A stretch of 64,000 nt of DNA, taken from positions 248,001 through 312,000 of the forward strand of contig NZ_CP038231.1 of assembly GCF_006542395.2 (NCBI RefSeq), read 5' to 3'. The translations under genes were made by a program, and so were the position numbers. This document shows, piece by piece, positions 25,618-36,862 of the stretch. Source of the stretch: Formicincola oecophyllae. Its GTDB lineage: Bacteria > Pseudomonadota > Alphaproteobacteria > Acetobacterales > Acetobacteraceae. Position 1 is the stretch's first letter. Every line of letters begins with the position of its first letter. The notes beneath the pieces are model-generated. The model had not been told where the DNA came from. It made no database searches and saw nothing but the letters and a program-made list of their open reading frames with translations.

Positions 25618-25708
<91 letters not shown>

Positions 25709-25735
25709 TCAGCTTTAGCTAAGCTTCCTAATATT

Positions 25736-25755
25736 AAGGGCTTCTTAGAGCCCTT
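25736..25755 (+). terminator. Hairpin after tRNA-Ser
   Basis: A 7-bp stem, AAGGGCT (25736-25742) with AGCCCTT (25749-25755), 28 bases after tRNA-Ser. There is no T run after it, so termination is uncertain; the stretch to hsdM is AT-rich and should contain the hsdM promoter. Confidence 0.35.
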
Positions 25756-25878
25756 ACGGCTGGTACTTGATAAGCTTTAAAAATATATCCAAAATCTGGC
25801 TTAAGGCTGGCCAAGCATGCCAGCGCCCTTTATAAAACAACCACCCTTTTTAAGCGTGTGTTAAAGGTTTAGGCCACC

Positions 25879-27780
25879 ATGACTGCTTCTGACGTTACGC
25901 CATCCTCAACGCCAGAAAACCAGCCAGACGAACGCAGCGCGCAATTTACCGAACTTTCCTCCATGATATGGCGCGTGGCTAAGGAAGCCCCTTTGCGCGG
26001 CCATTTTAAGCAACACCAATATGGCACGGTTATTCTGCCCTTTACCATTCTGCGGCGCTTAGACCAAGTTTTAGCCCCCACTAAGGAAGCTGTTTTAAAG
26101 GAAGCCCAGGACCCGCTTTGGCAAGGCCAGCCCTCTATTGATGTTCTTAAAAACACCGCCAACCAAGCTTTTGCCAATACATCACCGCTTGATTTAACTA
26201 AAATTGCTGGCGCACCGCACGATTTAGAAGCCAACCTTAACGCTTATGTTGCTGCTTTTACGCCTGAAGCACGCGATATTTTCGACCACTTTAAGTTTGC
26301 TTCCATTATCAGTGCGCTAGCGCAAGCTAATATCCTGCATAATGTTGTTACCCTTTTTGCTAGTTTCGACCTCAGCCCAGAACGTGTGGATAACCACCAA
26401 ATGGGCAGCATTTTTGAGGAACTCATCAGGCGCTTTTCTGAAACATCTAATGAAACAGCTGGAGAGCACTTTACTCCACGTGAAGTGATCCAATTACTGG
26501 TTGAACTCATCTTTGCTGAAGACCGCACAGTGCTGGCCCAAACCAAGGCCCCTATCCGTTCCATTTACGATCCAGCCTGCGGCACAGGCGGCATGCTTTC
26601 TGTAGCTGAAGATTATTTGAAGTCTATTAATCCTACAGCCAGTGTGAATGTTTTTGGGCAGGAATTAAACCCAGAATCTTACGCTATTTGCCGTGCTGAT
26701 ATGCTGATTAAAGGCCAAAATGTGGAGCATATCCACCTTGGCAATACCCTTTCAGATGACAAACTAACAGGCCAGCGCTTTAACTATATGCTTTCTAACC
26801 CGCCCTATGGTGTGGACTGGAAAAGCGCCCGTAAAGCGATTGAGGATGAACATAAAAACAAAGGCTATGATGGGCGCTTTGGCCCAGGGTTGCCACCTAT
26901 TTCTGATGGAAGCTTGCTCTTCCTACTGACCCAAGTTGCTAAAATGAAGCCAGTTAGCGATGGCGGCAGCCGCATTGGTATTGTTTTAGACGGTTCACCG
27001 CTTTTTACAGGTGGTGCAGGTTCAAGTTCATCTGAAATTCGCCGTTATGTTCTTGAACAGGATTTGGTGGAGGCCATTATCGCCTTACCAACGGAGATGT
27101 TCTTTAACACAAACATTGCAACTTATGTTTGGGTGCTAACCAACCACAAACCTGTTGAACGCCGAGGCTGTGTGCAATTAATTGATGGTTCAAGCTTCTG
27201 GCGCAAAATGCGCAAAAGCTTGGGTTTTAAACGCCGCGAAATCACCCCAGAACAGGTGGGGGAATTGGTGGCGCTTTATAACCAGGCCAAACCAGCCCAA
27301 CGCGCTACCTTGGTGGATAGTACTGGTCAGGAAACCATGCAGATTGTGCCAGAGGGCACAGAACCACCCCAAGCCCTCGAAGGTGGCAGCGTTAAGCTCG
27401 CCCCCCTTTCCGTTATCGTGCCGAATAAGGCCTTTGGTTTTAGGCAAATAACTGTAGAACGCCCGCTTTATAATGAAGATGGCACTGTGCAAACGGGCAC
27501 AAGGGGTAAAGCTAAGGGTAAGCCCCTGGCCGATAGTGCTTTGCGTGATACGGAAACCATCCCTTTAAATGAGGATATTCAAACCTGGTTTGAACGCGAG
27601 GTAAACCCCCATGCCCCTGACGCTTGGATTGACGAAAGCAAAACCAAAGTGGGTTATGAGATCCCTTTTAACCGTTACTTCTATGTTTATGAACCACCAC
27701 GCAGCTTGAAGGACATTGATGCTGATTTGCAGGCTGTTACAGCCCGCATTACAGCGCTTTTGGGAGGGATGGCATCATGA
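25879..27780 (+). CDS. hsdM: Type I restriction-modification system, DNA methyltransferase subunit HsdM
   Basis: N6-adenine methyltransferase subunit. The helical HsdM N-terminal domain (about 25-175) is followed by the SAM-binding motif YDPACGTGGML (Tyr230-Leu240) and the catalytic NPPYGV (from Asn307). The length of 633 exceeds the usual 500-530 because of an insertion-like region around residues 480-570. Codon choice uses many A/T-ending codons, unlike the flanking chromosome, which suggests acquisition. The stop overlaps hsdS by 4 bases. With HsdS it would protect DNA and with HsdR it would restrict it. Confidence 0.96.
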   Translation: MTASDVTPSSTPENQPDERSAQFTELSSMIWRVAKEAPLRGHFKQHQYGTVILPFTILRRLDQVLAPTKEAVLKEAQDPLWQGQPSIDVLKNTANQAFANTSPLDLTKIAGAPHDLEANLNAYVAAFTPEARDIFDHFKFASIISALAQANILHNVVTLFASFDLSPERVDNHQMGSIFEELIRRFSETSNETAGEHFTPREVIQLLVELIFAEDRTVLAQTKAPIRSIYDPACGTGGMLSVAEDYLKSINPTASVNVFGQELNPESYAICRADMLIKGQNVEHIHLGNTLSDDKLTGQRFNYMLSNPPYGVDWKSARKAIEDEHKNKGYDGRFGPGLPPISDGSLLFLLTQVAKMKPVSDGGSRIGIVLDGSPLFTGGAGSSSSEIRRYVLEQDLVEAIIALPTEMFFNTNIATYVWVLTNHKPVERRGCVQLIDGSSFWRKMRKSLGFKRREITPEQVGELVALYNQAKPAQRATLVDSTGQETMQIVPEGTEPPQALEGGSVKLAPLSVIVPNKAFGFRQITVERPLYNEDGTVQTGTRGKAKGKPLADSALRDTETIPLNEDIQTWFEREVNPHAPDAWIDESKTKVGYEIPFNRYFYVYEPPRSLKDIDADLQAVTARITALLGGMAS

Positions 27781-29132
27781 GCAACAACCCTAAAACCCCT
27801 CACCACTCGATCTTAAAGCCTTACCCTGCTTACAAACCATCAGGCTTGCCCCAAAACGCTGATTGGATTGGCGCTATTCCTGAAGGATGGGCTGTAAGCA
27901 AAGCAAAAAAAGAATTATTTTTCACTGTAGGTAAAACACCTAGCAGTGGTAAAGATGATTACTATGATGGTGGAGATTATAACTGGGCTAACATCTCTGA
28001 CCTTAAATCTAAATATATTTCTGAGGCAAAAACAAAAATAACTCTTCAAGCGATTAAGAAGTTTGGCATGAAACCTTGTGTGGAAGGTTCATTGCTTTTT
28101 TCCTTTAAGCTCAGTGTCGGATTAGTAAGCATTGCTAAAATTCCCCTCTATACTAATGAAGCTATAGCAAGTTTTAGGCCGGGCTCAAATTTTTCTATTG
28201 AATGGGCATATTATGCACTGCCGGAATATTTAATTCATAATGCCAGGCCAAATATATATGGTGCATTATTACTTAACCGAAACAAAATTGAAAATGCTAT
28301 TATAATTTTTCCTCCCCTTTCAGAGCAAAGGGCGATTGCGGGGTGGTTGGATGTGGAATGTGGGAAAATCGATGAAGCGGTGAAGGCCCAGGAAGAGCTG
28401 CTGGCGCTGCTGGATGAAAAGCGCTCTGCCCTTATCAGCCATACTGTAACCAAGGGCCTTAACCCTGCTGCCCTTCTTAAACCCTCTGGCCATCCCTGGA
28501 TCGGCCCCATCCCCGCACATTGGGAAGTAAAACCATTAAAAAAATTAGTTAATCAAATTAGTTTGAAGAGTTCATCAGTTGATGAAATAAAAATTGGTCT
28601 TGAAAACATTGAAGGCTGGACAGGTAGATATATACCTACAGAAAGTGAATTTGAAGGTAATGGAATAAATTTCATTAAGGGAGATATTTTGTTTGGCAAA
28701 TTAAGGCCCTACCTAGCTAAATCTTGGATTGCTAGTTTTAATGGTGAGGCTATAGGGGATTTCATCGTTATACGATGCAAAGAGGCAAAACTATTTAATA
28801 AATATCTTAATTTCTTTATCCTAACTAAGGATTTCATACAGCAAGTCAATGGGCTTTGTTTTGGAGCTAAAATGCCACGTATAGATTGGCTTGGGTTAAG
28901 TAGCCAGTTAGCTCCTCTTCCTCCCCTCTCCGAACAAAAGGCGATTGCGGCCTATTTGGATGAAGAATGTGGGAAAATTGATGAGCTTAAACAAGCTGCC
29001 CAAGAGGCCATCGCGCTTTTAAAAGAAAAGCGGTCTGCACTGATTTCCGCTGCTGTTACGGGCAAAATCGATGTGCGTAATTTGGCCCCTCAACCCTCTT
29101 TGAGTACGGATTCAAGCACCCCTTCACGCTGA
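27777..29132 (+). CDS. hsdS: Type I restriction-modification system, specificity subunit HsdS
   Basis: 451 residues with the usual two-TRD plan. TRD1 occupies about residues 20-178; a conserved helical region starts PPLSEQRAIAGWLD (Pro179); TRD2 covers about 240-380; and a second copy of the helical region starts PPLSEQKAIAAYLD (about 382). The repeated spacers let the two TRDs read a bipartite target. Both TRD-coding stretches, especially 28530-28900, are extremely AT-rich against the spacers, as expected when TRDs are swapped by recombination. The target sequence cannot be predicted from sequence. Confidence 0.95.
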   Translation: MSNNPKTPHHSILKPYPAYKPSGLPQNADWIGAIPEGWAVSKAKKELFFTVGKTPSSGKDDYYDGGDYNWANISDLKSKYISEAKTKITLQAIKKFGMKPCVEGSLLFSFKLSVGLVSIAKIPLYTNEAIASFRPGSNFSIEWAYYALPEYLIHNARPNIYGALLLNRNKIENAIIIFPPLSEQRAIAGWLDVECGKIDEAVKAQEELLALLDEKRSALISHTVTKGLNPAALLKPSGHPWIGPIPAHWEVKPLKKLVNQISLKSSSVDEIKIGLENIEGWTGRYIPTESEFEGNGINFIKGDILFGKLRPYLAKSWIASFNGEAIGDFIVIRCKEAKLFNKYLNFFILTKDFIQQVNGLCFGAKMPRIDWLGLSSQLAPLPPLSEQKAIAAYLDEECGKIDELKQAAQEAIALLKEKRSALISAAVTGKIDVRNLAPQPSLSTDSSTPSR

Positions 29133-29177
29133 AAAAGCGCTAAGCTTCTCTAGGTTGAGTGGATAAGGACGCAGGCC

Positions 29178-32100
29178 ATGCCAACAGATTTTCACCAAGA
29201 AGTGCATTTTGAAGATGCCCTCTGCCGTGACCTCGCCCAAGAGGGCTGGCTTTATGAGGCCCCCTTAACCAATCAAGGCAGCAACAGCCAGGGCTATGAT
29301 GCTGCTTTAGCCCTTTATCCAGCAGATTTGGCCGCTTGGGTGCAGGAAAGCCAACCCGATTTATGGCAGCACTTTAAAACCATGAAGGGATTGGAGAACA
29401 ACGAAGCAGAAGCAGTCCGAGTTCTGGGTGCCCATGTGCGCAAAGCGCTTGACCACTATGGTGTTTCAGATGTTTTGCATAAGGGGGTAAGGATTATTGG
29501 CCTGCCACGCCCCCTTAAGCTATGCCAATTTAAGCCTGCACTGAGCTTGAACGCCGACTTATTAAAACTTTACCACGCTAATAAACTGCGTGTGTTGCGC
29601 CAAGTTTATTACCAGCAGCCCTTAGCAGGGCAAAAAAGCCAAAACAGTATTGATGTTGTTTTGTGCCTTAATGGCGTGCCTGTTGTTACTATGGAGCTGA
29701 AATCAGATTTCACCCAAAGCGCCCAGCAGGCTATCAGCCAATACCGCCAAGATAGGCTACCCAAAGCGCCGCGCCGCCCTGCAGAACCATTGCTGAGCGT
29801 GCCTGGGGGTGCAGTGGTGCATTTTGCTGTGAGCCAATCAGAAGTGGCCATGTGCACAGCGCTTAATGGTGCGCAAAGCGTGTTTTTGCCTTTTAACCAA
29901 GGCAATCAAGGTGGTGCTGGCAACCCAGCCCCAAAGGATGGCTACGGCACAGCTTATTTGTGGCAGCAGGTTTTAACGCCAGATTCGTTATTAGAAATTC
30001 TTGACCGTTTCCTTAAACCTGCCAAAACCAACAAAGGTGTGATTAAGGGTTGGATCTTCCCGCGTTACCACCAGCTTATGGCGGTGCGTTCTGTTGTAGA
30101 GGATGTGCGCCAAAAGGGCGCAGGGCAGCGCTACCTTATTCAGCATTCAGCTGGCAGTGGTAAAACCAAATCCATTGCATGGGTGGCCCATGCGCTTGCT
30201 GATTTGCACAATGACCAAAACCAAAAGCTGTTTGATAGCGTTGTTGTGGTTTCAGACCGCAAAGTGCTTGATGGACAGCTGGCTGATGAAATTAGCGATT
30301 TTGAAAGCGTGCGCGGCATGGTCGCTACGGTCAGTGGTGCTGGTGGTTCTAAAAGTGAAGAACTCGCCCAGGCTTTAACGCAAAAAAAGAACATTATTGT
30401 TTGCACGATTCAAACATTCCCGTTTGTTCTTAAAAAACTTGCTGAACTCAGTACTCAGCACGGGCAGCGCTTTGCTGTTATCGCTGATGAAGCCCATTCA
30501 TCCCAAACAGGCCAAGCAGCGCAGCAACTTAAAAAGGTCCTTTCAGGCCCGCGTGTTGGCGATGAAATCATCACACCAGATGATAGTGAGGAGGATATTT
30601 TAACTGATATCCTCAGCCAGGATATGAGCCAACGTGCTGCCCAGGCCCCTGGTATTTCCTATTTAGCGTTTACAGCCACACCAAAAGCCAAAACGCTTGA
30701 ACTTTTTGGCACGAAGCCAAACCCCACCCAGCCTGTGAGCGAGGATAACAAACCAGCACCGTTCCACATTTACCCTATGCGCCAAGCTATTGAGGAAGGC
30801 TTTATTTTAAATGTTTTGGACAATTGGGTGTCTTATGGGCAGGCTTTTAAATTAGCCCTTAGTGAGGATGATGCTGGCCAACGCGAAGTTGATAGCAGCA
30901 AAGCAACCCATTCCATGTTGAATTGGGTGCGCTTAAACCCCAAAACGATTGAAACCAAAGCGCAAATTATTTTAGATCACTACACAACGGTGGTTCAAAA
31001 CCTGTTAAGCGGCCAAGCACGGGCTATGGTGGTGACACGCTCCCGCCCAGAAGCTGTTTTGTGGACGTTAGCCCTGCGTAAGGAAGCCAAAGCACGCCAA
31101 CTGATGGTGGATAATGGCCAGGGCGGCCAAGGCCCGCTAGCTGTGCTGGGTGCGTTTTCAGGGGAAGTGCATTCCCCCACCCACGGCATTGCTGAACCTT
31201 TAACAGAAGCCGCCCTTAACCAGCAGGAACTGCAAGGGCAAGATATTAGGGAAGCTTTTGGTAAAGGCTGTAACCGCATTTTGGTGGTGGCGAATAAGTT
31301 CCAAACTGGTTTTGATGAACCATTGCTATGCAGCATGTATGTGGACCGCCCCCTTTCTGGTATTCAAGCTGTGCAAACGCTGTCGCGCCTTAACCGTTGT
31401 TATAGCGGGCCTTATGGCACTAAAGAACAAACTTATGTTGTGGACTTTACCAACAAACCTGAAACCATTTTGGAAGCATTCCAAACTTATTTTGAGCATG
31501 CAGAACTTGCTGAGCCTAGCAAACCAGAAATGGTTATGGAACTGGCCCATAAGTTGGAAAGCAGCGGTTATTTTAATGATCAACAATTAGATGATTTTGT
31601 TAAAGTGATCTATAAGCCCAATGTTACCCCCAAAAATGTGGATAAAGTCCTGCGCCCCCTTGTGGATCCGTTACTGCAGGCGCACCGCCAAGCGCAGCAA
31701 GCTTTAAACGCTTATGCTTTAGCAGGGCAGGACAATAGCGCTGCTGCAGACCGCCAGCGGACTGTTATCAAGCAGCTTGAAGATTTTAGGAGGAATTTGG
31801 GCACTTATTACCGTGCTTATAATTTTTTAAGCCAGCTTTGGAATTACCAAGATACATCCTATGAAAAGCTTGCTCTTTTAGCGCGCTTTTTGCCGCCCTT
31901 ATTAAAATTTGAGCGCGACCAGGAGGTGCTTGACCTTTCAGAACTGGAGCTTACGCACCTTCATATTAAAAGCCGTGGCAAGCAGGCGCTTATTTTGCAG
32001 CCAAGCCAAGGTGAAGGGTTAAGTGGCCTGCGTGAAGCTGGCCTTGGTGGCCAGCATGAGGCTGATAAAAAATCCCTTGAGGTGATTTTGCAGCAGCTTA

Positions 32101-32405
32101 ACCAACTTTATGGCACTGAATGCAGCAATGAACACCAATTAGGGTTCATCCAGGAGGCTACCAAAGCAATGATGCAGAATGCGACTTTGCGTGACCAAGC
32201 CCTGCACAATAGCCGAGATAGCTTTATGCAATCCCTTGACCTGCAAAAAAGCTTAACCCAAGCCCTTATGGATTTAAGAAAATCTGGTGAAAGTTACCAG
32301 AAAATGAGCACCGCAACGTTAATGGATGCAAGCATTAAGGAAAAGCTTATCTCTATGCTTGTTCAGGATGGGCAGCTTTGGGATAAGCTGCGCATCAACC
32401 CTTAA
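29178..32405 (+). CDS. hsdR: Type I restriction-modification system, endonuclease/translocase subunit HsdR
   Basis: 1075 residues. The N-terminal PD-(D/E)xK nuclease shows Asp159 and Glu173-x-Lys175 (IDVV and VTMELK). The SF2 helicase motor has Walker A SAGSGKTKS near residue 325, DEAH near residue 437 and TFTATP-type motif III (AFTATPKAKT). Further motor motifs include ANKFQTGFDEP and QTLSRLNRC, and a helical C-terminus binds the methylase core. It starts 45 bases after hsdS and ends before a strong terminator. No frameshift is seen, so the system looks functional. Confidence 0.96.
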   Translation: MPTDFHQEVHFEDALCRDLAQEGWLYEAPLTNQGSNSQGYDAALALYPADLAAWVQESQPDLWQHFKTMKGLENNEAEAVRVLGAHVRKALDHYGVSDVLHKGVRIIGLPRPLKLCQFKPALSLNADLLKLYHANKLRVLRQVYYQQPLAGQKSQNSIDVVLCLNGVPVVTMELKSDFTQSAQQAISQYRQDRLPKAPRRPAEPLLSVPGGAVVHFAVSQSEVAMCTALNGAQSVFLPFNQGNQGGAGNPAPKDGYGTAYLWQQVLTPDSLLEILDRFLKPAKTNKGVIKGWIFPRYHQLMAVRSVVEDVRQKGAGQRYLIQHSAGSGKTKSIAWVAHALADLHNDQNQKLFDSVVVVSDRKVLDGQLADEISDFESVRGMVATVSGAGGSKSEELAQALTQKKNIIVCTIQTFPFVLKKLAELSTQHGQRFAVIADEAHSSQTGQAAQQLKKVLSGPRVGDEIITPDDSEEDILTDILSQDMSQRAAQAPGISYLAFTATPKAKTLELFGTKPNPTQPVSEDNKPAPFHIYPMRQAIEEGFILNVLDNWVSYGQAFKLALSEDDAGQREVDSSKATHSMLNWVRLNPKTIETKAQIILDHYTTVVQNLLSGQARAMVVTRSRPEAVLWTLALRKEAKARQLMVDNGQGGQGPLAVLGAFSGEVHSPTHGIAEPLTEAALNQQELQGQDIREAFGKGCNRILVVANKFQTGFDEPLLCSMYVDRPLSGIQAVQTLSRLNRCYSGPYGTKEQTYVVDFTNKPETILEAFQTYFEHAELAEPSKPEMVMELAHKLESSGYFNDQQLDDFVKVIYKPNVTPKNVDKVLRPLVDPLLQAHRQAQQALNAYALAGQDNSAAADRQRTVIKQLEDFRRNLGTYYRAYNFLSQLWNYQDTSYEKLALLARFLPPLLKFERDQEVLDLSELELTHLHIKSRGKQALILQPSQGEGLSGLREAGLGGQHEADKKSLEVILQQLNQLYGTECSNEHQLGFIQEATKAMMQNATLRDQALHNSRDSFMQSLDLQKSLTQALMDLRKSGESYQKMSTATLMDASIKEKLISMLVQDGQLWDKLRINP

Positions 32406-35028: not shown

Positions 35029-35551
35029 GATGCGGTGCCCAAGGCAGCCGGCCTTACCCCAGGCAGCAGGGCGCATTTTTCCTACCACGCTTTGGAAGCA
35101 TGTTCGGAAAAGGCCTGCAGCACTTAGTGGTTAAGCGGCAGCCGTCATGGCGCATGGTTCGCCCCCACCAAAACAGGCAACGCCTGGTGGTGCTAGCCCC
35201 CAAAGGGGCTAAGGGGCCTTATGGCCAGATTTTAAGGAAGGGAGGAAGTGCTGTGCTGCCTCAAGCAGCGGGGCAACACATTCGCATCATCACGCCTGGC
35301 ATGGTCATGGCGGCGCGCTGTTCAGTCTGGTGTGGCAGAACGGGCTTGAAAGGCGCGCGGGCCATGGGAACGTCCTTTTGTCAGGGCAGCCAGCCGTGGT
35401 GGGCAAGCATACTGTGGCGTGGTTCCACCATCCCGCCACAGCGTGCTGAGCCTGGCAAGGGGTAGTTGCCAGTGTACTGAACGGAAAAACAACCCTGTTG
35501 CACAAGCGCAACATTATTGGCACTGCCCAGAGCATCCATTGGCCAAACCCA
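35029..35551. other. Intergenic region of about 520 bases beside the recombinase gene
   Basis: No convincing gene. It contains a hairpin-forming AGCCCCCAAAGGGGCT near 35196-35212 without a T run, and an inverted repeat with a 6-bp spacer at 35490-35519 near the 3' end of the recombinase gene (separate entry). It should also hold the TonB-receptor promoter, which I cannot identify. An open frame of 121 codons here has an unlikely composition. Confidence 0.5.
35490..35519. repeat. Inverted repeat with 6-bp spacer, candidate recombinase site
   Basis: Arms CAACCCTGTTGC (35490-35501) and GCAACATTATTG (35508-35519) match at 9 of 12 positions, with perfect 6-bp inner arms TGTTGC and GCAACA around a 6-base spacer. 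Twelve-base arms and a 6-8 base spacer are the layout of crossover sites used by tyrosine recombinases. It lies 33 bases beyond the 3' end of such a gene. The functional link is inference. Confidence 0.35.
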
Positions 35552-36637
35552 TCAAGCGAAGCTTGAACCGGGGTTGTCCTTCAGCAAGTCGGCTTGGCGT
35601 ACATAGCCCATCAGAACATCAAGGCTTTTATGGCGTGACGTGTCAGCGATCTTCAGCGCGCTGACACCAGCCATGGCCGCTGTAGTGATGAAGCCGGCGC
35701 GCAGGCTGTGGCCAGAGACCATGTCGGCATCCAGCCCCGCTTCCACAGCGTACTTCTTCACCATATTGGCCACGGAGCGCCCATTCATAGGGCGTTCTGA
35801 AAGATGGCCCCAGCGGTCTATGGAACGGAAAACAGGCCCCGATTTGATGCGCGCCGCACGCAGCCAAGCCTTGAGCAAGCGTGGCGCCTTCAAATGAAGG
35901 CCATCAGGAATGCCAACAGATTGGCCAGCGCCCACTTTATCGGTTTTGCTGCGCCTGATGGCCAGAACCACGCCACCTGTGCGCCAAAGGATATCCTCCA
36001 CAACCAGGGCCACCAGTTCAGAACGCCTGAAAGCCCCCATAAAGCCAATGGCCAGCATGGCGGCGTCACGCTTGCCGCGCAGTGTTTCCGTGGGGCAGCA
36101 GGCAACCATGGCTGCAAGGTCCTCCGCCAGGATGGCAGCGTGGCGTTCTGGCCTGGTGCCCAGTTCACGCCGGATGCCAGCCAGGATCCTGTCCACATCT
36201 TCATGGCGGGCGGGGTTGGGGTCTGTGCGGCCCATGGCGCGGTAAGCATAGGCCACGCCTGCACGCGCCCGGCTGATGGTGCTGGCGCGCAGGCCATCGC
36301 GCGCCATGGCGGCCAGCCAAGCGGCGATTTGTTCAGCGCTGGCTTGGGCCACTTCCTGGTTGCGCCTGCGGCACCAGCGCGCAAAGCTGCGCGCATCGCT
36401 TTCATAGGCACGCAGTGTGGCTGGGGCGAGGGCTGCGCGCGCGAAAGCATCCAGCCACTCCCGCTCCGTGACTGTTAGTTGGGCTGTGCCGGCAGTGCCT
36501 TGCCCAGTGGCCACTAGCTCTGTGGAGGTGGCCTCCACCAGGGTAGCACTGTTCCCCTCCTGAGCGTGGTCAGGGGTGGGGACAGGCAGGTTGGCGTCTT
36601 CATCCATGCCGTCAGGTGGTGGGGCGGCAGTGTTCAT
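35552..36637 (-). CDS. Tyrosine recombinase / integrase
   Basis: DNA strand-exchange enzyme of the phage-integrase family. From the ATG at 36637, with GGGA 8 bases upstream, it is 361 residues; the longer frame starts with TTG. It has an N-terminal SAM-like core-binding domain (WLDAFARAALAPATLRAYESD and following) and a catalytic domain. Catalytic residues read in order: Arg in GAFRRSEL, Lys in RRSKTDKVG, His-x-x-Arg in HSLRAGF, His in TSRHKSLD and Tyr in LMGYVRQ. A Pro/Glu-rich leader of about 60 residues precedes the binding domain. No phage or plasmid genes adjoin, and no tRNA borders it, so its substrate is unknown. Confidence 0.92.
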   Translation of the reverse strand: MNTAAPPPDGMDEDANLPVPTPDHAQEGNSATLVEATSTELVATGQGTAGTAQLTVTEREWLDAFARAALAPATLRAYESDARSFARWCRRRNQEVAQASAEQIAAWLAAMARDGLRASTISRARAGVAYAYRAMGRTDPNPARHEDVDRILAGIRRELGTRPERHAAILAEDLAAMVACCPTETLRGKRDAAMLAIGFMGAFRRSELVALVVEDILWRTGGVVLAIRRSKTDKVGAGQSVGIPDGLHLKAPRLLKAWLRAARIKSGPVFRSIDRWGHLSERPMNGRSVANMVKKYAVEAGLDADMVSGHSLRAGFITTAAMAGVSALKIADTSRHKSLDVLMGYVRQADLLKDNPGSSFA

Positions 36638-36776
36638 AGCGATGGTCCCTGATTGGCTGAGGGTTGGAAAGGCTTGAAAAAGTCTTTTGGGGCTTAAAGC
36701 GTTTGTTACCAAAAACCGCGCTGCGCTGCGGATTTAAGGGGAAATCATGACTTCTGGTAATGTCGATTATCGGTTC

Positions 36777-36802
36777 TTACATGTAAAGACACCTCAAGGT
36801 GT
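36777..36802 (-). promoter_or_regulatory. Two palindromes upstream of the recombinase gene
   Basis: TTACATGTAA (36777-36786) is a perfect 10-bp palindrome. ACACCT-CA-AGGTGT (36789-36802) is a 6-bp inverted repeat with a 2-base centre. Both lie about 140-165 bases upstream of the recombinase start, next to a GATAAT-like -10. They could be operator sites, but which protein would bind is unknown. Confidence 0.4.
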
Positions 36803-36807
36803 AAGGG

Positions 36808-36832
36808 TGAAAAAACCTCCCGTAGGAGGTTT
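36808..36832 (-). terminator. Rho-independent terminator downstream of the exported-protein gene
   Basis: An 8-bp perfect stem (AAACCTCC, 36813-36820, with GGAGGTTT, 36825-36832), loop CGTA, followed on the minus strand by six T. It is 30 bases past the stop of the gene ending at 36863 and insulates it from the recombinase gene. Confidence 0.88.
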
Positions 36833-36862
36833 GGTGAGCAACAGGGAAAAGCCCTTCAACCC

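Follow-up and report, generated by a model that had tools for sequence, protein, structure and literature searches.

A plasmid-type, Cre-like recombinase as candidate chromosome dimer resolvase in an acetic acid bacterium that lacks XerC and XerD

The recombinase and its plasmid-borne relatives

On the minus strand of the Formicincola oecophyllae chromosome, at 35552-36637 of the window (the whole 64-kb stretch of DNA analysed here, C1:248001-312000), lies a gene for a tyrosine recombinase, with its ATG at 36637 and its stop codon ending at 35552. The question that it raises is on which DNA such an enzyme acts, and to what end. The frame is intact and the 361-aa product matches Pfam PF00589 (E 3.2e-12); six residues (R204, K231, H310, R313, H336 and Y345), whose catalytic roles we assign from an alignment with Cre and from the catalytic residues of Cre, are invariant in a 35-sequence alignment, which bears out the full catalytic set claimed in an earlier note on this DNA. 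An AlphaFold2 model (mean pLDDT 86.1; confident except for a tail of about 46 residues) has Cre as its best PDB match (TM 0.72, by query length), and Cre is among the closest solved sequences (E ~1e-12, ~25% identity). The protein combines a two-domain Cre-like fold with the R-K-H-R-H/W-Y catalytic set, and is our candidate for a single chromosome-dimer resolvase.

The genome, which is rated 100% complete and comprises 1,957,668 bases on three contigs, carries the gene on C1, the 1,945,806-base contig, and the gene is thus not plasmid-borne; its GC content of 0.632 is host-like, against 0.41-0.48 in the neighbouring restriction genes. The absence of phage, plasmid or tRNA neighbours, also claimed earlier, is confirmed in part: no plasmid genes were recognised beside the gene, and neither att repeats nor element genes were found there (phage and island genes were sought among the listed ORFs), but the tRNA part is only roughly true, as a tRNA-Ser gene (window 25618-25708) lies 10 kb off. 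This tRNA gene directly precedes type I restriction genes of low GC (0.41-0.48), hsdM, hsdS and hsdR (stretch 25618-32405; HsdM and HsdR by Pfam), which probably form an acquired island. No direct repeat of the tRNA-Ser end (att) was found within window 24.5-44 kb, and on that ground a role as integrase of the restriction island was discarded. Between the promoter side of the recombinase gene and a 151-aa gene, a hairpin with a perfect 7-bp inner stem (AACCTCC...GGAGGTT) at window 36808-36837 is likely a terminator.

The best plasmid matches of the recombinase (48% identity) come from 4.6-11 kb plasmids of Komagataeibacter and Acetobacter, and in a tree of 96 rows it falls into a clade with small-plasmid recombinases of acetic acid bacteria (support 100/96), as sister (99/92) to those of pGXY050, Apa386Bp4 and pApBDGP5B; its exact place is less sure because its branch is long (1.15). 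These three enzymes share 48% identity with it, and all three plasmids have a 28-bp site of the kind described below. Unlike it, they are encoded on plasmids of 4.6-11 kb, next to genes for the BrnT toxin (3/3) and HigA (2/3); they lack its long N-terminal tail and carry no annotation beyond site-specific integrase. A close orthologue did not turn up: the best match among 100 family genomes reaches 48%, and a single-protein contig search confirmed none, the search covering this genome alone of its genus and collections that may omit records very near it.

Loss of xerC and xerD from a genome that keeps FtsK

Only two PF00589 genes are present in the genome, this recombinase and a P4-type integrase at C1:216883, which leaves a single Xer-like recombinase. 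It scores 50.2 bits against TIGR02224 (XerC; cut-off 335.15) and 59.1 bits against TIGR02225 (XerD; cut-off 329.6), below both of these NCBIfam cut-offs, which are strict in that the relatives' true XerC/D also fall short of them (~160-313 bits). A XerC/D-like gene at E 1e-40 or better is present in 97 of the 100 family genomes and not in this one; the three genomes without it are this one, G031 (~380 contigs) and G039 (~1240 contigs, 87% complete). The XerD model gives E values of 1.6e-46 or lower in 34 of the 36 family genomes searched; the value is 5e-16 in this genome and 2e-6 in G031, the 5e-16 match being, by its score, the recombinase itself.

Comparison with six small-genome relatives (G029, G032, G040, G046, G061 and G069) allows the missing genes to be placed. 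There, xerD adjoins accA in all six, with aroK-aroB on its other side in five, and xerC lies beside priA or within ~2 kb of it in all six, adjoining a second common gene in five. The accA/aroK/aroB and priA neighbourhoods of this genome have the same gene order, with no N in them (accA, shikimate kinase, dehydroquinate synthase and PriA were confirmed by Pfam), yet xerD is missing between its conserved neighbours at C1:1453055-1453720 and xerC is missing at ~740 kb, so that no two paralogous recombinases stand at the conserved loci. A genome rated 100% complete has lost both xerC and xerD from their syntenic loci, and FtsK is kept at full length (1103 aa), with its gamma domain. Such a loss need not be compensated in the way that we propose below, since G031 (2.5 Mb, rated 100% complete, its assembly fragmented), a second family genome without XerC/D-like genes, is also without a relative of this recombinase.

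Candidate sites of action

If the enzyme acts on a site of its own, where might this be? The earlier note had pointed to an inverted repeat 3' of the gene, with 12-base arms (nine matching) and a 6-base spacer, as a Xer/Cre-type crossover site. The repeat, CAACCCTGTTGC-ACAAGC-GCAACATTATTG at window 35490-35519, is present as described, but the role suggested for it is not borne out. Repeats of that quality (12-base arms, spacer 6, at least nine matches) occur about once per kb in the window, numbering 61 against a mean of 36.4 in 10 shuffles, and those with a perfect inner 6 number eight against a mean of 3.7. The whole genome holds one copy at up to three mismatches, so that the second copy of the 30-base site that had been called for is lacking; the inner halves have four matches in the window at up to two mismatches, with 6.9 expected. 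On the gene strand (minus), the repeat forms a stem followed by a T-rich tract, GGGTTGTTTT, and is probably a weak terminator of the recombinase gene; even this role is no more than likely, since the fold of the stretch is not more stable than that of shuffles (z 0.93). No counterpart was found beside the recombinase genes of 86 related loci: repeats of 9/11 quality occur in the 200 bp downstream for 24 of 82 relatives and in the 200 bp upstream for 25 of 83, control stretches having them in 132 of 751 cases, and none of the downstream ones resembles it. Its inner halves (at most one mismatch, spacer 5-8) have seven matches in 537,882 bases of the relatives, the nearest 340 bp from the recombinase match, and therefore show no pattern. 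We thus rejected this repeat as recombination site for its single copy, chance-level count, terminator-like form and want of a counterpart in relatives, whose common site is found 5' of the gene, outside the interval 35490-36637 that the note had considered.

These 86 loci, searched for symmetric sites near the gene, comprise 80 from named genomes (the best 80 of 568 from a contig search with an alignment as query, all 37-47% identical) and six from plasmids. A 28-bp site (11-6-11, approximately ACTTCCGATAA-N6-TTCTCGGAAGT) recurs upstream of their recombinase genes, as exemplified by ACTTCCGATAA-CTGTTC-TTCTCGGAAGT in Microvirga lenta. At up to three mismatches it has 90 matches in the 50,106 bases within 600 bp upstream, against 62 in 487,776 other bases; these counts allow spacers of 5-8 and take palindromic sites on both strands, and the 62 include some sites of this kind that lie further upstream. 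A site with a 6-bp spacer and at most two mismatches lies within 900 bp in 34 of the 86 relatives, and from the 31 distinct ones, none of them from this genome, we built a matrix with which left-out training sites score 12.9 to 41.7; among the 52 loci left out of it, some have 7-bp spacers or more distant sites, and in others none was seen. A widespread family of Cre-like recombinases, annotated as no more than integrases, thereby gains candidate 28-bp sites. Within the clade of our enzyme, the matrix (flat background) finds a clear best site in five of the seven replicons or contigs examined, namely pGXY050 (28.9), pApBDGP5B (25.0), Apa386Bp4 (23.6), G. cadivus (19.3) and G. sphaericus (19.1; second 17.4), and no clear site in two G. 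oxydans plasmids (10.9); a stricter relatives' consensus gives pGXY050, Apa386Bp4 and pApBDGP5B in part a lower score or none. On small plasmids of acetic acid bacteria, a related recombinase probably resolves plasmid multimers at this 28-bp site. The core pattern also has nine matches in IMG/VR, with no related recombinase in the stretches fetched, and these are probably due to chance.

Applied to C1 (59 stretches including the window; 974,808 bases, half of the genome), the relatives-only matrix ranks C1:1772678 first (28.9) and C1:284750 second (19.5), the third place scoring 16.5. The second of these, a candidate gene-side site ACTTCTGGTAA-TGTCGA-TTATCGGTTCT at window 36750-36777 (plus strand; half-sites 36750-36760 and 36767-36777, spacer 36761-36766), lies 113 bp upstream of the recombinase ATG and ranks first in the window, where the next distinct place scores 12.2. 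The first, a candidate dif-like site ACTTCTGATAA-CATCTA-TTATCGGTAGT at C1:1772678-1772705, has the same orientation and is intergenic, flanked by a vWA/TerF-like gene and a gene for a glutathione S-transferase; the one frame alongside it is an unsupported one of 84 aa. In 40 first-order Markov copies of the scanned stretches the maxima were 9.9-20.4; the site at C1:1772678 therefore stands out by itself, and the gene-side site, whose score falls inside that range, by its place and its likeness to the other. The matrix maximum in 189,108 bases of XerCD-bearing relatives was 17.8. A matrix-free search of the scanned half agrees, in that the arms of either site, used as query, match best at the other (3/22 mismatches, 19/22 positions common), the next independent places having 6 and 5 mismatches. 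Palindromic positions number 6/11 in the gene-side site and 9/11 in the other, and the spacers TGTCGA and CATCTA agree at 3/6. Thus two such sites are present in the scanned half of the chromosome, one beside the recombinase gene, directly oriented and 458 kb apart by the short way round; directly oriented sites at that distance, with different spacers, do not fit the inversion or excision at this spot that had been suggested. Degenerate as it is, the gene-side site could be an ancestral cis site, an operator or a relic, and from the relatives' sites we infer that the other is cognate to the recombinase. Contig C3 (9362 bases), a probable plasmid with a serine resolvase (Pfam) and a long glycosyltransferase-like frame, has no such site (best matrix score 8.6), and contig C2 reads N throughout. 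A perfect palindrome, ATGCTTGGAAAGAT-TTGA-ATCTTTCCAAGCAT, lies inside the glycosyltransferase-like frame of C3.

The GC skew of C1 changes from negative to positive at ~950 kb, where the 566 bases between maf (PF02545) and hemE (PF01208) hold 14 DnaA-box-like words (TGTGGATAA or TTATCCACA). As hemE is a marker of alphaproteobacterial origins, skew and words together place the replication origin in the maf-hemE stretch. The skew turns back at 1.71-1.79 Mb (the terminus zone), with a cumulative GC maximum at 1.71 Mb and a second peak at 1.76 Mb. Cumulative octamer polarity (each octamer counted once per 2 kb, since one repeat array sways plain counts) has its maximum at 1.76 Mb and stays high to 1.79 Mb, then drops, rises again near 1.82 Mb and falls; GGGNAGGG polarity gave no clear signal. 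The minus strand at C1:760021-762437 carries a CRISPR-like array in which CGCGTGTGCGGGGGA is repeated 30 times, mostly at intervals of 61 bases. The higher-scoring site (1.7727 Mb) is thus a symmetric, putatively cognate site near the replication terminus; the point exactly opposite the origin (1.9216 Mb) is 149 kb away, and the arms measure 824 and 1122 kb. The recombinase gene itself, at 0.284 Mb, is mid-arm, and GC skew rules out a terminus position for it. We scanned 1.62-1.91 Mb completely and the rest more thinly, the zone 1.71-1.79 Mb making up ~8% of the scanned bases; as this sampling favours finds there, the terminus position of the site is weaker evidence than it appears. A prophage-like stretch (C1 ~1760.7-1769.1 kb; L122:709-9088) lies ~4 kb to its left, with a cI-like repressor and tail/baseplate-like frames (by eye) and primosomal and late-activator PHROGs (by search); it has no tyrosine integrase of its own, because the genome has only the two PF00589 genes.

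A canonical dif in this genome was considered and, from a search of the scanned half for the dif of relatives, rejected. The putative dif of the XerCD-bearing relatives G032, G061, G040, G013 and G037 is CGTATAATATATATTATGCCAACT, identical over 24 positions in three, 21/24 in two, and 20/24 in a sixth (G062); this sequence did not turn up in the half scanned here, where the best match is 17/24. The genes that flank it in the relatives map to ~1.93, 1.91, 1.73, 1.66, 0.60, 0.12 and 0.01 Mb here and not to the terminus-zone site. A degenerate dif core pattern, run over 22 genomes, matched 2+3 times here and, as a reversed control, 1+1 times; where genomes are AT-rich it was not strict enough.

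Proposed role, rival explanations and known systems

The loss of xerC and xerD at both loci, the intact enzyme, the relatives' common site, the two matching sites in the scanned half (one in the terminus zone) and the FtsK with its gamma domain lead us to favour, with somewhat more confidence than doubt, the prediction that this gene encodes a chromosome dimer resolvase, a plasmid-type recombinase having replaced XerCD in a single-recombinase, Xer/dif-like system. We suggest that a small-plasmid-type recombinase, on the chromosome of a lineage without XerC and XerD, would act alone, like Cre, with two monomers binding each 11-6-11 site. On the model of Cre, XerH and XerL, the two terminus sites of a chromosome dimer would be brought together in a tetramer, and exchange of strands over the 6-bp spacer would release two chromosome monomers. 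The site at C1:1772678-1772705 would be the working dif-like site, possibly under some control by FtsK, and the gene-side site an ancestral cis site or operator; the difference between their spacers should prevent recombination between the two, which would split the chromosome. Points that weigh against this reading are the thinner sampling outside 1.62-1.91 Mb, the distance of the site from the antipode of the origin, the renewed octamer rise near 1.82 Mb, the degenerate gene-side site with its Markov-range score, the 34 of 86 relatives that have a close 6-bp-spacer site, the want of an orthologue that would show conservation, and the case of G031. Chromosome dimer resolution, one of several roles raised in the earlier note, is now the best supported of them (no XerC or XerD; a family-type site in the terminus zone), by way of a different site from the ordinary, single-copy 3' repeat that had been put forward for it. 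On a wider view, to which we give even chances, a Cre/lox-type module for multimer resolution on small plasmids was domesticated in an XerCD-less acetic acid lineage as a separate origin of dimer resolution, and a new dif arose in the terminus zone, kept apart from the ancestral gene-side site by its different spacer; the takeover may have come before or after the loss of XerCD.

A rather unlikely rival is that enzyme and upstream site came with a plasmid and work on plasmid dimers or in their own regulation; the site in the terminus zone would then be a relic or have some other cause, and chromosome dimers would go unresolved. The plasmid-borne state of the closest relatives and an upstream site placed as in those relatives would both fit this, as would the existence of XerCD-less bacteria without a known substitute (PMC2731167), of which G031 may be another. 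Against it, the gene has no recognised plasmid genes next to it, the plasmid-like C3 has its own serine resolvase and no site (C2 being all N), and a better site with the same arms in the terminus zone is left unexplained. We consider it improbable that the recombinase is a decaying relic with no present function: the want of a close orthologue, the long branch and the partly asymmetric gene-side site could be read in this way, but the open frame with all catalytic residues, the confident Cre-like model, the host-like GC and the better-kept second site argue otherwise.

Still less probable is an integrase that moves DNA, for example the low-GC restriction island between tRNA-Ser and the gene, or the prophage beside the terminus-zone site. 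The tRNA-Ser gene does adjoin the hsdMSR genes and the prophage-like stretch is close to the site; yet the tRNA end is not directly repeated in 24.5-44 kb, the GC of the recombinase gene is unlike that of the island, and there is only one strong site in 1.62-1.91 Mb, so that no pair of sites flanks the prophage. We give hardly any credence to crossover at the 3' repeat, for which the arms and spacer speak and against which stand its chance-level frequency, single copy, terminator-like form and lack of a counterpart near relatives.

For a chromosome dimer resolvase of this kind the closest precedent, by analogy, is XerL. According to PMC9765430, Legionellales lack XerCD and use the single recombinase XerL, which was tested by experiment together with its sites; in L. 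pneumophila over 400 kb separate the xerL gene from dif, and in Coxiella, where the gene is on a plasmid, one site adjoins it and a diverged site lies near the terminus of the chromosome. In outline the arrangement is the same here, with a lineage without XerCD, one recombinase, and gene and terminus site far apart. It differs in its host, one acetic acid bacterium, in the chromosomal place of the gene and in the tree, where the neighbours of the enzyme come from small plasmids; and ours is a prediction from sequence. PMC2731167 lists other proteobacteria without dif/Xer. The difSL/XerS and difH/XerH systems likewise have a single recombinase with a site near its own gene (PMC5357621 and PMC2731167), whereas the site next to our gene is mid-arm and the higher-scoring one 458 kb off; our enzyme scores 29.2 with the XerS model (cut-off 267), and its model matches the XerH structure less well than Cre (TM 0.56 versus 0.72).

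Few of the systems that maintain bacterial chromosomes are kept as widely as XerCD/dif, and our case, if true, would show how XerCD/dif can come to be replaced; it would also be a directly testable example of a plasmid module turned chromosome function, in a 1.96-Mb genome without XerCD but with FtsK. A literature search over titles and abstract starts (preprints and most subscription journals lying outside its scope) found nothing on the 28-bp site or on XerCD replacement in acetic acid bacteria. Cre/loxP of phage P1 is alike in being the closest solved fold and in using one protein on a symmetric site; it differs in sequence (~25% identity) and in its site, loxP having 13-bp arms and an 8-bp spacer as against the 11-bp arms and 6-bp spacer here. 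In contrast to XerCD/dif of Proteobacteria, there is one enzyme, far under the XerC and XerD cut-offs, and its candidate site is unlike the relatives' dif (best 17/24 in the scanned half); what the two have in common is a 28-bp, 11-6-11 site in the terminus zone and an FtsK that has kept its gamma domain.
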